This document shows, piece by piece, positions 5,577 through 10,865 of a stretch of 25,259 nt of DNA. Every line of letters begins with the position of its first letter. Position 1 is the stretch's first letter. Below the pieces are notes generated by a model. That model was not told the DNA's origin and did no database searches. It saw only the letters and a program-made list of their open reading frames with translations. Position numbers and translations under genes: made by a program. Origin of the DNA: a virus; the IMG/VR virus record IMGVR_UViG_3300033553_000830, positions 1 to 25,259 of that record, one strand, 5' to 3'.

Positions 5577-5801
5577 CTATACTGCCTGACTATATGTCAA
5601 TGATAACTCGACATTTATAGTTGGCGTTTCTGTTCCAGAATAACCAATGGGCCTCTCAATGGTCACGTACTCAAGTGTTGGTTGAACGTCTATTGTTGGA
5701 ACTTCATAATTCGTGTAATCAGGACGTTCCATTTCTTCCCACGGTTTTGATTCTTTTGCTTTTTTCTTTCCTAATAAAACAAACTGAATGAGTCTATTCA
5801 T
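5577..5801 (-). CDS. Short EVPTIE-repeat tail protein (74 aa)
   Basis: Small protein of 74 aa. Residues 1-20 form a hydrophobic then lysine-rich leader, and the rest consists of the same repeat found at the C-terminus of the preceding gene. One 25-residue unit runs 33-57 (beginning EVPTIDVQ) and a partial unit runs 58-74 (beginning ETPTINVE). Residues 22-32 look like the tail of a previous unit (compare EEMERPDYTNY with IEMERLYGHSPE upstream). The ATG at 5801 has AGGGAGGTATTGCA. It lies 12 nt after the larger repeat protein, suggesting duplication and splitting of a fibre segment. It could be a small fibre subunit or a detached remnant. No family is recognised. Confidence 0.6.
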   Translation of the reverse strand: MNRLIQFVLLGKKKAKESKPWEEMERPDYTNYEVPTIDVQPTLEYVTIERPIGYSGTETPTINVELSLTYSQAV

Positions 5802-5813
5802 TGCAATACCTCC

Positions 5814-7196
5814 CTACACAGGGTCGCCATTCAAGTCGGTTAAAGTTAGACCTATTTCAACTTCAATGGTTGGAACTTCTTCTGGGCTGTGCCCATACAA
5901 TCTTTCCATTTCTATATACTCAACGCCTAACTGAACTTCTATTGTTGGAACTTCATCGGGTGTATAACCTACTGGTGGTTCACCTTCCAATAAAGCTGTA
6001 AAACTGTTAAGCAACCGTCTGCAAGTATCTGAACCATAAAGTCTTAACCTGCCTAATGTTTCATCGTAAGCTAAATCAATGTCAAGCGAACTATCAACCG
6101 AATTGTGATTTATGGTAATAATATTACCCGCTGAAGTCATACTACTTATTGTCAATGGATTCCCACTTACTGTTTCGGTCATGGTCCAGCCTGATTCGCT
6201 TCCTGCAACGTTTATCGGAGGCAGGTTAATTTCAATCTCCGATTCTGTTTCCGATATACGTCTTACTTCAACTAAGGCAGGAATCGGTATACTGATATGA
6301 CAATATTCCAAACCTTCTAATATAGTTTCAATAGTCGGAACTTCAGTTGGTGAATAAGTATCAATATATTCAATCGGCGTGTATGTCAATCCTAACTGAA
6401 CTTCTATTGTTGGAACTTCAGGATATAAACTCATGCCCGCCCAATTTCTTGTAGTCACTGTCATGTGTGCGTTGTCTGAAGCATCTCTACCGAGTACCCC
6501 AATTCGGAAGTCGTTTGTTCTGAATAAGGCTATGTCTGTCAAGCCTGAAGGTAATTGAGTTATCTCTTGTTCTGTTTCCCACAGATATGTCGTGCCATCG
6601 CTTTGCAGACAATAATTCCGGTAGTAGGCTACTCCACTTTTCAGGTAAGCGACTATCAAACCCTGGTCTGATGTATGATCTGCTTGTGCTGGAAGCCATC
6701 CACGTATGGTGCATATTCTTCCGACGCCTGTTGCAAGTTCCAGTGATGTCCCGTCCCAATACTGAGCTGTTAGGCTTCCGCTGTTTTGTTTAAAAACCCA
6801 AGGATATTCATCAGCCACGAAGTTAAACCTTTTGCTCACCTGGTCCCGTTCCCAGTAGCCGTTGAACTCAATGGCGATGTCTGACGCTGATCCAGCTGTG
6901 AATTCTGCGTCCCATGGGACCGTTTCGTCATACGGTAAGTCTTTGCTTATCACATAAGAAACGCCATCCTCGATATAGATGGCGTATAGCTTGTTCGGCT
7001 CTGCTTCAGCTGTCTCCCTTTTGGCGGTTACATCAATCCGGTCAATGTCCGCTTTGTTGTGGATTGTGTAAACGGTGAAAAGTTCGTTCCATCGGCTGTT
7101 ATATACAAATATTTTCATGTGAGGGTTTGCATTTTCATAAAGGGTTTGGTGTGCTTTCTCGATGCGTGTTTTTAATTCTGTTGGTATTGATCGCAT
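5814..7196 (-). CDS. Tail-tip / fibre protein with C-terminal 25-aa EVPTIE repeats
   Basis: Protein of 460 aa. Residues 1-90 look like a virion-attachment domain (helical start, then strands around IDRIDVTAKRE and LYAIYIEDGVSYVI). Residues about 90-255 are beta-rich with WXXG-like strands suggestive of a propeller or sandwich. Four repeat units follow: 260-284, 285-about 297, 415-439 and 440-460, each starting EVPTIE. The two blocks are separated by a beta-rich insert at about 300-405. Unit length is 25 residues (75 bp), and two of the units share a 30-bp identical DNA stretch (5926-5955 and 6391-6420). The base composition shifts to A+T-rich from about 6470 downward, so the C-terminal half may have been acquired by exchange. 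ATG 7196 has AAAGGGGGCGG. It probably acts in adsorption. Confidence 0.6.
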   Translation of the reverse strand: MRSIPTELKTRIEKAHQTLYENANPHMKIFVYNSRWNELFTVYTIHNKADIDRIDVTAKRETAEAEPNKLYAIYIEDGVSYVISKDLPYDETVPWDAEFTAGSASDIAIEFNGYWERDQVSKRFNFVADEYPWVFKQNSGSLTAQYWDGTSLELATGVGRICTIRGWLPAQADHTSDQGLIVAYLKSGVAYYRNYCLQSDGTTYLWETEQEITQLPSGLTDIALFRTNDFRIGVLGRDASDNAHMTVTTRNWAGMSLYPEVPTIEVQLGLTYTPIEYIDTYSPTEVPTIETILEGLEYCHISIPIPALVEVRRISETESEIEINLPPINVAGSESGWTMTETVSGNPLTISSMTSAGNIITINHNSVDSSLDIDLAYDETLGRLRLYGSDTCRRLLNSFTALLEGEPPVGYTPDEVPTIEVQLGVEYIEMERLYGHSPEEVPTIEVEIGLTLTDLNGDPV

Positions 7197-7547: not shown

Positions 7548-7898
7548 TTATCCTTTTTCGCTTACGTACATGTTGAAAGCCGCTTGATATAGCCTGTTTG
7601 ACTTTGTAAAACCTCGTGTGTGCTGTTCTGAAATGGGTTGCGCCCTGATAATTCCGTCAAAGTACATACCGTCAAAATCTACATTGATAGGGATGGCGCT
7701 TGCAGCAGCAGCCACAAGGTTTTCCCATTCATCGTAAGTACAAAGCGCCTTAACGTTGGCTACGTCAGGCGCTGTCCCGATTTCCTGTATATGGTACCGC
7801 CCGTTGATTGTCTTTTGCTCAATCCGGTTGGGGTCTTTGTTTGGGATCACTGAAAGCACACGATGAGCGCATGTGTTGTTATACGCATCTTTTATCAC
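7548..7898 (-). CDS. Small tail protein downstream of tape measure (116 aa)
   Basis: Protein of 116 aa whose GTG start overlaps the tape-measure stop by 4 nt, with AAGGGAGCTGAGA upstream. The sequence mixes strands and short helices (YDEWENLVAAAASAIPINVDF at about 75-95 can form a helix then a strand). Position just after the tape measure and before the tip genes suggests a tail-tip assembly component such as a distal-tail-like protein. I recognise no motif. Confidence 0.65.
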   Translation of the reverse strand: MIKDAYNNTCAHRVLSVIPNKDPNRIEQKTINGRYHIQEIGTAPDVANVKALCTYDEWENLVAAAASAIPINVDFDGMYFDGIIRAQPISEQHTRGFTKSNRLYQAAFNMYVSEKG

Positions 7899-9715
7899 AC
7901 TCTCAGCTCCCTTCTGAATTCGTTCATAAAGGTTTCCGTTGACGCCACAAGCTCGCCCCGGTCGTTGACCCCTTCATGCCGGATCACGCCTGAGTGCAAC
8001 ATCTGGTTTGTGTAACCTCCGGAAAGAGTTCCCATTGCTGCTGATCTTGACATGGTTGCCGCCGATTGTTCAACAGCTCTCTTTGTGCTTTCAAGGCCTT
8101 TGGCAAACCCTTTGCCCGTGAAGCCTCCTATGGATTCAAATACTTTCGATGGTGATCGGATACCAAGTACACCTTTAACTGAATCAGTGATCCCGCCAAA
8201 GAATCCGCCCACTTTTTCTTTTATCCAAGAACCCATGCTTTTGATTCCTTCCCAAATTCCGGTGACAAGGTTTTTTCCTATCTCTTTGAAACTGGTTATA
8301 AGTTCAGCTCCTGATGAAACAAGGTCTGAGAAAAACTCTTTTATTCTTGTAACAACTTTGCTTATGGTTTCCTTTACCGAACTGAATACTGCTGATGCAG
8401 TTTCCTTGATCTTGTCCCAGTTTTTGTATAGTGCGATGCCAATCACAATGGCTGCCGCTATTGCAGCAATAGCAATTGCAAACGGAGCTACCAGCGCTGC
8501 GACACCTACACCAGCTGTCGATGCTGCCAAAGTCAATCCTCCAAGTCCGCTTATGATCGGACCAAGAATAGCCAGAAACGGTCCAACGGCTGCAAGTACA
8601 CCAAGCGCTATAAGGATCATGTTTTGCATTTCAGGACTTAAACCGGTAAATGCCCCCATTAACCCTACAACCGCTTCTTTTATCGCTGTCATCACCGGTT
8701 CCAAGGTTGCTCCAATTTCAGAAAGCTCCTGCATAAATTCAAATTGTGCATCTTTGCTTTCTATAAGCGCCTCATTTGATTCCTTATAACCTTTTGTAAC
8801 TTCTGAAAGCCCTAGATTATTTAACTGTTGCAAAGCATAATTTGTATCATCGCCAGTCTCTGCTGCAGCTGCCAAGCCTTCATTGAACGCTTCAATGTCA
8901 ACACCAGATCTTTCCAGCAGTTCTGCAAAGGGTCCAATGGCTTTACCTGTCGCAAGTGTTTCTTGTAATCCATCAGCTAATCCCTCAATTTTTAAAGTAT
9001 CAGGAAATTTGATAACAGCACCCGATAAGTCATCAACGGCTTGGGTCAGTGCATTTCCTGTGATACCTGAAGCCATAAGGTTTGATAACGCTTCAATGTT
9101 ACTGTCAGTTTCATCTGATATTTGGTTTAAGTTTTTAAGCGCGGCCTCTGCCTCGCCAACACCAGCGCCTGCTTGTTGTGCGTTGGTTTCTAATCGCGCC
9201 ATATCTTCCCGTAGTTCTCTGGTGCTCTCAACCGCTAATGTCATCCCACCGACAATAGGTGCCGTAACCCTGGATGTCATCTTACCTCCGATGTCAGACA
9301 TTTTGTCTCCGACCTTTTTCATTCCTGTTCCAATGTCTTTCCATTTATCGTTAGTGTCTTTCAACTTTTTATCAAGGTTTTTGAGGTCCTGTTCAGCTTT
9401 AACAATTTCTCTTTGAATGGCTCGGTACTGTTCCTCACCAACTTCACCACGCTGAAACTGCTGCTGAACCTGTTTTTCAGCATCACGGAGAGTCTCAAGT
9501 TTTTCTTTTGTACCATCTATTGCATCACCAAGCAACTTCTGCTTCTGTGCAATCAGTTCTGTGTTTTTAGGGTCAAGTTTAAGCAGCCGGTCAACGTCAC
9601 GCAGTTCCTTTTGAATATCCCTTGTCTGCTTGTTAACCTCGCCCAGGGCTTTATTTAATCCAGTGGTTTCACCACCGATCTCTATGGTTAAGCCTTTTAT
9701 TTTGTTAGCCGCCAT
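7895..9715 (-). CDS. Tape measure protein
   Basis: Tail length-determining protein of 606 aa. Residues about 1-140 form long helices with coiled-coil character (TRDIQKELRDVDRLLKLDPKN onward). A PhageMin_Tail-like core follows at about 140-320. A strongly hydrophobic Ala/Gly/Ile-rich region at about 360-430 could insert in the membrane at DNA ejection, and near the C-terminus LGIRSPSKVFESIGG (about 520-534) is a motif common to many tape measures. I chose ATG 9715, preceded by GGGGAGGGTGGTGAAACGG; earlier GTG codons at 9727 and 9724 are less favourable. The tape is short, so a tail of modest length is expected from the usual rule of about 1.5 angstrom per residue (inference). It follows the chaperone pair as usual. 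Confidence 0.92.
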   Translation of the reverse strand: MAANKIKGLTIEIGGETTGLNKALGEVNKQTRDIQKELRDVDRLLKLDPKNTELIAQKQKLLGDAIDGTKEKLETLRDAEKQVQQQFQRGEVGEEQYRAIQREIVKAEQDLKNLDKKLKDTNDKWKDIGTGMKKVGDKMSDIGGKMTSRVTAPIVGGMTLAVESTRELREDMARLETNAQQAGAGVGEAEAALKNLNQISDETDSNIEALSNLMASGITGNALTQAVDDLSGAVIKFPDTLKIEGLADGLQETLATGKAIGPFAELLERSGVDIEAFNEGLAAAAETGDDTNYALQQLNNLGLSEVTKGYKESNEALIESKDAQFEFMQELSEIGATLEPVMTAIKEAVVGLMGAFTGLSPEMQNMILIALGVLAAVGPFLAILGPIISGLGGLTLAASTAGVGVAALVAPFAIAIAAIAAAIVIGIALYKNWDKIKETASAVFSSVKETISKVVTRIKEFFSDLVSSGAELITSFKEIGKNLVTGIWEGIKSMGSWIKEKVGGFFGGITDSVKGVLGIRSPSKVFESIGGFTGKGFAKGLESTKRAVEQSAATMSRSAAMGTLSGGYTNQMLHSGVIRHEGVNDRGELVASTETFMNEFRRELRV

Positions 9716-9733
9716 CCGTTTCACCACCCTCCC

Positions 9734-9954
9734 CTAAAAAACATCAAAATGAGCTTGTGTTGCTTCAATAATTTGTTCTTCATCACCGTCAGAATCGTTC
9801 CGGTTGTTATATTCAATAATAAAATCGATGATCATACCAAAGGTTAGAATTTCAAAATCATACAGGGTGAGGCCTCTTTCCAACGCTGCCGCCATCAGAG
9901 TTTCTGTTGTTATGTCAGAGGCCCCTGACCCTCCTGAATCAGTCTTTTTTTTTT
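9734..9954 (-). CDS. Tail assembly chaperone T domain, expressed only by frameshift (gpGT)
   Basis: The +1 frame relative to gpG continues past the A10 tract: Lys-Lys, a Gly/Ser linker (TDSGGSGASDITTETL), then a helical domain (MAAALERGLTLYDFEILTFG, about 53 aa from the Met) ending at TAG 9734-9736. The only internal ATG (9893-9895) has no ribosome site nearby, so entry by frameshift from gpG is the sensible model. This is the T part of gpGT chaperones, made at low frequency in long-tailed phages. The fusion would be 181 aa (+1 shift) or 182 aa (-2 shift). It lies 18 nt before the tape measure start. See the frameshift entry for the signal. Confidence 0.82.
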
Positions 9955-9976
9955 GAACTGTGCAAGCTTGAAGTAA
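9914..9976 (-). promoter_or_regulatory. Frameshift signal of the tail chaperone: A10 tract + hairpin
   Basis: The 0-frame of gpG runs TCA AAA AAA AAA GAC TGA. The T frame is open only after a TAA at 9979-9977, and gpG stops at 9941-9939, so slippage must occur in the 38-nt window, which contains the A10 run (9954-9945). The needed shift is +1 (or -2). Downstream a GTCAG / CTGAC stem (9929-9925 with 9918-9914) lies 15 nt after the run and could promote pausing. Transcriptional slippage on A10, dropping one A, would give the same product. Confidence 0.75.
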
Positions 9977-10280
9977 TTAGATCCTGAATTTCCGGTATGA
10001 TCTCCATCAAAGGAAACTCATCAAATGAATCAAGCCATGTCATTGGATCTGGTATGGATGGTTCCGCTGTTTTTGCAAGCGTCCACACAAGGTTATAAAA
10101 CACCTCAAGATCAACCATTTCAATGTTTTTAACTTCCTGTGTTTTTTCATCGAATGCTTCCATGATTTTCAGAATGTCTTTTATTGCATCACGTCCGAAT
10201 TGTGCTTTATACCTTAATAAAAAAGCACCAGTTGATTTGAATCTAATCTGGCGCCCATCAATGGTTAACGTTTTTTCCAT
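9939..10280 (-). CDS. Tail assembly chaperone gpG-like
   Basis: Short product of 113 aa between the tail tube and tape measure genes, the standard position of gpG-type chaperones that coat the tape measure before tube polymerisation. The protein begins with a beta-hairpin-like stretch (TLTIDGRQIRFKSTGAFLLRY, residues about 4-24). It then has helices with LEVFYNLVWTLAKTAEP (about 59-75) and ends Ser-Ser-Lys-Lys-Lys-Asp at the A10 slip site. The ATG at 10280 has AAGGGAGCTG upstream. A fraction of ribosomes should continue into the T domain. Lack of catalytic motifs and the neighbour pattern make the call firm even without sequence identity. Confidence 0.85.
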   Translation of the reverse strand: MEKTLTIDGRQIRFKSTGAFLLRYKAQFGRDAIKDILKIMEAFDEKTQEVKNIEMVDLEVFYNLVWTLAKTAEPSIPDPMTWLDSFDEFPLMEIIPEIQDLITSSLHSSKKKD

Positions 10281-10295: not shown

Positions 10296-10865
10296 TTATC
10301 CTGCCGGAGGTGTGTAAGTTGGAACAGAGGTAAAGAATGTATCGTATGCGGTCGCAGCGCTTCCAAATGATCCTTTTACTATTCCTGAATCAGATGCAGG
10401 CGATGCTGTCATATCCATTGATTCTGTTTGCACATCGATGGATTCACTCTTAGTCGTACTCGAAACAGCAGGACGTGAAACAGTCACGTTATAAAAAACA
10501 TGACGTGTTGCATTTGCATCGCCGCTAAATTCAAACAACAGGGCGAATGCTTCAGGCAACGCCTCTGCATCCTCGTATAAACCGCCGGTTGTTACATCTT
10601 CAATAAACCCTAAAATATCTTTCTTAAATGTTTCCGGTATCAAGGCTACTTCAAGCGATCCTTCATACCCCTGGTTAGATTCAGCCACAAAGTAGGCTAC
10701 ATCATCAGCGTAAAACTCGGTTTTTTCGCCTTTTGCGTCCATTGTAAGGGCTACTCCACCAGGGATAGGTTTAGGTGTTCCATATGTCACTGCACCGGTT
10801 TCTGCATCTATTGTCAATTCACTGTAATGCACTTTCTTTAAACCGTATTTAACTTTATTAGCCAT
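10296..10865 (-). CDS. Major tail (tube) protein, phi13-like
   Basis: Protein of 189 aa, expected to form the stacked hexameric rings of the tail tube. The beginning (KVKYGLKKVHYSELTID), the LTMDAKGEKTEFYADDVAYF segment at about 40-59, the EGSLEVALIPETFKKDILG segment at about 68-86 and SRPAVSSTTKSESIDVQTESM at about 129-149 (given only as positions of matching blocks) follow the phi13-type major tail protein pattern. ATG 10865 has GAGGAAGGGG upstream. It lies after the gp10-like gene and just before the chaperones, a highly conserved order. Confidence 0.88.
   Translation of the reverse strand: MANKVKYGLKKVHYSELTIDAETGAVTYGTPKPIPGGVALTMDAKGEKTEFYADDVAYFVAESNQGYEGSLEVALIPETFKKDILGFIEDVTTGGLYEDAEALPEAFALLFEFSGDANATRHVFYNVTVSRPAVSSTTKSESIDVQTESMDMTASPASDSGIVKGSFGSAATAYDTFFTSVPTYTPPAG

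Follow-up and report, generated by a model that had tools for sequence, protein, structure and literature searches.

A −1-type tail-chaperone frameshift module in a Bacillota prophage, with its T domain one base out of the family frame

The window analysed here, a stretch of 25,259 bases, contains what, judged by its genes, is a G/GT tail-assembly-chaperone module of a siphophage-type Bacillota prophage. The T domain lies in the +1/−2 frame relative to gpG, whereas nearly all relatives have it in −1. We consider this most probably (a probability of about 0.6) an ordinary −1 module that has been put one base out of frame, either by a recent indel that hit the A run at the end of gpG or its immediate flank, or in assembly. 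Frameshifted tail chaperones and the −1, −2 and +1 variants among phages are already known, and the unusual frameshift in the window does not so far amount to evidence for a new mechanism.

Results

The module is encoded on the minus strand in the order major tail protein, G, T, tape measure. The gpG-like open reading frame (9939–10280; phrog_709, E = 2e-39) specifies 113 amino acids ending in SSKKKD; upstream of it lies the major tail protein gene (10296–10865; phrog_88, E = 5e-48, and PF06488) and downstream the tape measure protein gene (7895–9727; phrog_58, E = 6e-77). The T frame (9734–9976) carries a Gly/Ser linker and then the T domain, and closes with a TAG stop at 9736–9734. What a sequence-only reading had described as a T-like domain behind this linker is a real conserved domain, matching the full 59-position phrog_3033 profile (E = 2.1e-14) and scoring 80 bits with a family HMM built in this analysis. 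Further, gpG is 45.8–46.7% identical to six Ruminococcus phage proteins that are annotated, by annotation rather than experiment, as tail assembly chaperones. Together, the gene order, the chaperone-annotated homologues and a conserved T domain in an overlapping frame bear out the same reading's identification of a G/GT pair. Both phrog_709 and phrog_3033 carry an unknown-function listing, and Pfam yielded no family matching G or T.

Structure comparison was less informative for gpG. Its AlphaFold model has a pLDDT of 86, and a Foldseek search with the model returned no match at E ≤ 0.001; the gpG profile, run against PDB sequences, gave a single match at chance level. VIA comparison aligned the predicted gpG with 3d8l (phage p2 ORF12; Z 3.8, rmsd 4.6 Å, 82 aligned) and 3fgx (Z 3.4, rmsd 4.9 Å, 81 aligned), both of which we take to be chaperones.

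The window is an integrated prophage, flanked on the left by host genes and cut off on the right by the end of the contig. Read by eye from their proteins, the left-flank genes appear to include a glycine reductase and a BCCT transporter. In the host flank (L238, 1920–3233, minus strand), two adjoining open reading frames resemble, again by eye, the two parts of a single glycine/betaine reductase subunit with an in-frame stop between them, the pattern that a selenocysteine codon would leave. The remaining structural genes of the prophage appear intact. Elsewhere in the window, one minus-strand protein (405–1220) combines a peptidoglycan-binding domain with an NAGPA phosphodiester glycosidase domain and adjoins an endolysin-type peptidase (1222–1692); two adjacent open reading frames (5577–7196, minus strand) share a repeated PTIEVQLxLTY-like motif, possibly from tail fibre or baseplate protein repeats; and a 650-residue protein near the contig end (23274–25226, minus strand) has a PcfJ-like domain at its C terminus.

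The gpG gene ends TCA AAA AAA AAA GAC TGA, and the run has exactly ten A (9945–9954, minus strand), with the heptamer A_AAA_AAA in register and G after it. This run is the sole A/T run of at least nine in the window; because shuffled sequences matched A9 1.6 times on average, its length by itself is not improbable. The sequence-only reading was right on the run, on a T frame that is +1/−2 relative to gpG and open from 9976 to 9734, and on a 38-nt overlap of the two frames that contains the run, which is the sole plausible slip site there. It was right, too, that the length of the run needs verifying and that the −1 frame stops early, and wrong in placing that stop 13 codons on: from the last A of the run (9910–9945, minus strand) the −1 frame has 11 sense codons and then TAA at 9912–9910. 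T lies one base off this frame, so an ordinary −1 slip in the window ends after 11 codons. Among the features of a −1 site, the window thus has the in-register heptamer and a 3′ stem-loop and lacks the downstream domain in −1; among those of poly-A slippage genes, it has an A run of at least about nine at the frame change.

We gathered gpG relatives from viral contigs, genome contigs, genomes and 10 of the 125 matching phage records. Before counting, we removed duplicate copies of the window's own locus, one duplicate relative (L162), the left-flank stretch and host poly-A loci. The 328 remaining loci, the window included, were then scored for G and T with two HMM pairs built in this analysis; the set is redundant, as overlapping copies of some contigs remain in it. 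T lies in −1 at 303 of the 318 scorable loci and in +1/−2 at 13, again including the window; two loci are broken, none has G and T fused, and ten are unscorable (T not found in eight, no G in two). Clustering at 95% gave 204 clusters, 192 of them purely −1, eight purely +1/−2 and four mixed. The Bacillota phages GBSV1, CBP1, phiRg519T2 and bIL285 resemble the window in having phrog_709 and phrog_3033 homologues with an A run at the junction; unlike the window, the phage records have T in −1 in all ten that were sampled.

Two of the 13 +1/−2 loci are doubtful and probably not real: L352, where the T frame opens 49 nt past the G stop, and L265, a damaged copy. Two others (L201 and L205) are identical across G and T, so the 13 do not represent as many independent events. 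At the two broken loci, copies of one contig (L064 and L245), T sits in a separate zero-frame open reading frame. There the frame break falls between the G stop and T; the near-identical siblings L058, L062 and L063 are −1, and the genome appears to carry several related prophages. Plasmid records gave three matches. No second copy of the window's phage was found among viral contigs with the exact pattern and a variable run, the T domain alone as query found no relative among viral contigs, and two genomes of the same genus contained no gpG match.

The slip signal of the family is highly uniform. Of the 235 distinct −1 loci whose run could be used, a count that leaves out L116, 231 have A_AAA_AAA, A_AAA_AAC or A_AAA_AAG in the zero-frame register, and a single one has A_AAA_AAT. 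Such a register lock is expected from tandem tRNA slippage and not from polymerase slippage. The family signal has the form of a classic −1 ribosomal site, and the −1 slippage is, we infer, translational. Runs in these loci are 6 to 10 A long. Because seven of the 235 have A10 with T in −1, A10 does not itself demand a +1/−2 shift. A10 is the longest run among the −1 relatives. At six of the seven loci that have it, the last A closes a codon and the next base is T, not the G found in the window; the window's missing base may therefore sit just 3′ of the run. No −2 or +1 motif was conserved among the ten +1/−2 loci compared, whose runs range from A7 to A10 in differing registers. A search of the open-licence literature found no description of an A-run site with a stem for phrog_709/phrog_3033, which is no proof of absence.

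Downstream of the run the minus strand is predicted to fold into a long stem. Its 5′ arm (9917–9932; AGGGT, a 2-nt bulge and GGGGCCTCT) starts 12 nt past the run, and its 3′ arm (9864–9877; AGAGGCCTC and ACCCT) lies over conserved ERGL codons. The hairpin that the sequence-only reading had placed at 9914–9929 does exist as a short competing pairing (GTCAG/CTGAC, minus strand); it is absent from the minimum-energy structure, in which the longer stem is the stronger element. A 101-nt stretch containing the stem has a minimum-free-energy z-score of −2.9. Across the family, the 3′ arm falls on T's Glu-Arg-Gly-Leu codons and the 5′ arm in the variable linker.

When the arms of 43 loci less than 90% alike were exchanged, own arms paired at a mean of −22.2 kcal/mol and swapped arms at −15.8 kcal/mol, and the observed sum was not matched in any of 20,000 permutations. 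The stem of the window is among the strongest of the 43 (own arms −28.4 kcal/mol, swapped mean −14.6 kcal/mol; own 5′ arm third best of 43). Against a synonymous-codon null, 36 of the 43 loci fold better at p ≤ 0.05 (mean z −2.9; p = 0.03 for the window), so the stem is not a by-product of protein coding. Nor is it universal, since the own arm pairs rank worst or near-worst at three loci (L164, L122 and L023). RNAalifold found no consensus structure in 31 aligned stretches, perhaps because the arms drift in register. On the same alignment, 88.4% of the cells of a named helix are paired and its covariation score is higher than in any of 500 shuffles, but the number of pairs changed on both sides did not clearly stand out, since 82 of the 500 shuffles had as many. 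The helix was picked on the alignment that was used to score it, so the case for the stem rests on the swap test and the synonymous null. The stem is apparently a frameshift stimulator of this phage family.

Relatives of the window show the same displacement by one base. L167 (A7, +1/−2) and L192 (A8, −1) are 97.9% identical and differ by one A; L188 (A7, +1/−2) and L170 (A8, −1), 94.9% identical, again differ by one A; and L319 (A7, +1/−2) sits in a cluster with five −1 copies. Two closer relatives of the window's gpG, L008 and L030, are +1/−2 with A8 and strong stems, their own nearest relatives having A9. Loss of one base from the family arrangement gives exactly the frame of the window, and gain of one base gives a fusion; the offsets are one-sided, with 13 of the loss type and no fusions.

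Runs of this length are not confined to the prophage. The 1.88-Mb host genome (G000) has four A10 and seventeen A9 runs and none of A11 or longer. Nine of the seventeen A9 runs are embedded in unbroken open reading frames of at least 193 amino acids, 100 nt or more from either end (two share one frame), and the three A10 runs elsewhere are found at gene edges or in intergenic DNA. Sequencing error was considered as the settled answer and set aside as unproven: the A9 runs that stay intact inside long open reading frames give no sign of careless assembly and, as far as runs of that length go, weaken the assembly-error version.

Discussion

Our results are best accounted for by an ordinary −1 module with a single base out of place. 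In the family, gpGT would arise when the ribosome, aided by the nearby downstream stem-loop, slips −1 on the A_AAA_AA(A/C/G) at the end of gpG and reads on into the T domain. In the window both signals are intact. The likeliest cause of the offset is that the resident prophage recently lost one base, from the A run or from directly 3′ of it, or that assembly introduced an equivalent one-base change. If the sequence is right, gpGT could still be made, in small amounts only, if RNA polymerase added or dropped an A or the ribosome slipped by −2/+1. The prevalence of −1 in the family, with the heptamer in register and the paired stem kept, favours this ordinary −1 module, and the recurrence of one-A offsets among near-identical relatives favours an indel, which in an integrated prophage need not meet counter-selection. 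Several observations count against an indel. No second copy of the phage turned up that would show the ancestral state of the window; the intact structural genes argue against general decay; eight clusters are +1/−2 with no −1 sibling, so some of them could work; and neutral errors would not clearly predict offsets that go one way and never give fusions. Deletion-biased mutation in runs would produce the same one-sided pattern.

The claim of the sequence-only reading that the phage is programmed for +1/−2 is not supported by this comparison: the relatives are overwhelmingly −1, the window keeps a −1 heptamer and stem, and the offset recurs as a one-A difference. We think the offset is probably recent. 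That the ribosome is programmed to shift by −2 (or +1) on A10, in the manner of phage Mu, seems improbable to us. The frame arithmetic fits it, the independent A8 relatives L008 and L030 share the frame and have strong stems, and tailed phages use −1, −2 and +1 shifts, according to the part of PMC5009743 available to us. The in-register A_AAA_AAA, however, should favour −1, which is a dead end in the window; the +1/−2 loci lack a common motif; and inspection of the sequence by eye revealed no Shine-Dalgarno-like stimulator upstream. If the sequence is right, polymerase slippage is a likelier rescue than a programmed −2/+1 slip. RNA polymerase on A10 would then yield mRNAs of varied A number, of which those with one A fewer or two more would be read directly into T, those with one more would reach T after a −1 slip, and faithful copies would give gpG. 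The A10 run is among the longest in the host genome, and slippage efficiency rises with A number in one tested gene group (7 A, 10%; 9 A, 40%; 11 A, 63%; accessible text of PMC3711429). A precedent is tssM1 of Citrobacter rodentium, which likewise has a long A run shortly before the stop and a longer product in another frame: as described in the portion of PMC4256274 that we could consult, its A11 run gives transcripts with 10 to 15 A, 20–25% are shifted, and both products are required. In that portion its authors report finding neither a stem nor any comparable signal, unlike the window, where the register lock A_AAA_AA(A/C/G) and the 3′ stem point to translation and neither is needed for slippage. 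We therefore hold functional transcriptional slippage to be unlikely.

It is very improbable that T is a separate protein made from an internal start, such as the in-frame ATG near 9895, with no frameshift needed. In about seven of the ten phage records, a small separate open reading frame is annotated between G and either the tape measure gene or genes next to it, but the ATG near 9895 has no well-placed ribosome-binding site, and the slip site and stem conserved in the family would be superfluous for internal initiation. A further, tentative possibility is that the A run is a frame switch that tolerates loss of a base: T would pass from −1 to +1/−2, enough gpGT would still be made, the same run and stem serving for polymerase slippage or for a −2 slip, and a G-T fusion would never be kept. 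In the available sections of PMC4493119, an engineered G-T fusion in TP901-1 gave complete-looking particles that were non-infectious. Fusions may accordingly be counter-selected and +1/−2 states tolerated, and the same observation could account for the absence of fused copies under programmed −2/+1 frameshifting.

The window shares its general plan with known chaperone pairs. In lambda and other tailed phages, as here, G lies between the major tail protein and tape measure genes, and reading into the T domain takes a change of frame where G ends; lambda, like the relatives of the window, uses −1, whereas the window has T in +1/−2 (lambda: PMC5009743, in its available part). Mu, which the same part of that source describes as using a −2 frameshift, has T in +1/−2 as the window does; the window, for its part, carries a heptamer and stem of the −1 type. 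The 17.5/17.5* pair of SPP1 is, like the window's, a Gram-positive siphophage chaperone pair with a putative frameshift, which unlike the window's is −1 on UUUUUUC, as far as the accessible text of PMC6316719 goes.

What the offset means for these phages depends on its origin. If it is a plain indel, a +1/−2 shift called at a homopolymer from a single prophage or metagenome copy should be checked against relatives and reads before it is termed programmed. If the phage works as sequenced, it would illustrate how a single step at one slippery run can give rise to the known −1, −2 and +1 diversity among tailed phages. Should the A run indeed act as a frame switch, the window, L008 and L030 would be living phages in a second state, and the frameshift direction of tail chaperones could change by one mutational step. 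The conserved stem past the A run offers a defined element for tests of frameshift control in Bacillota phages.
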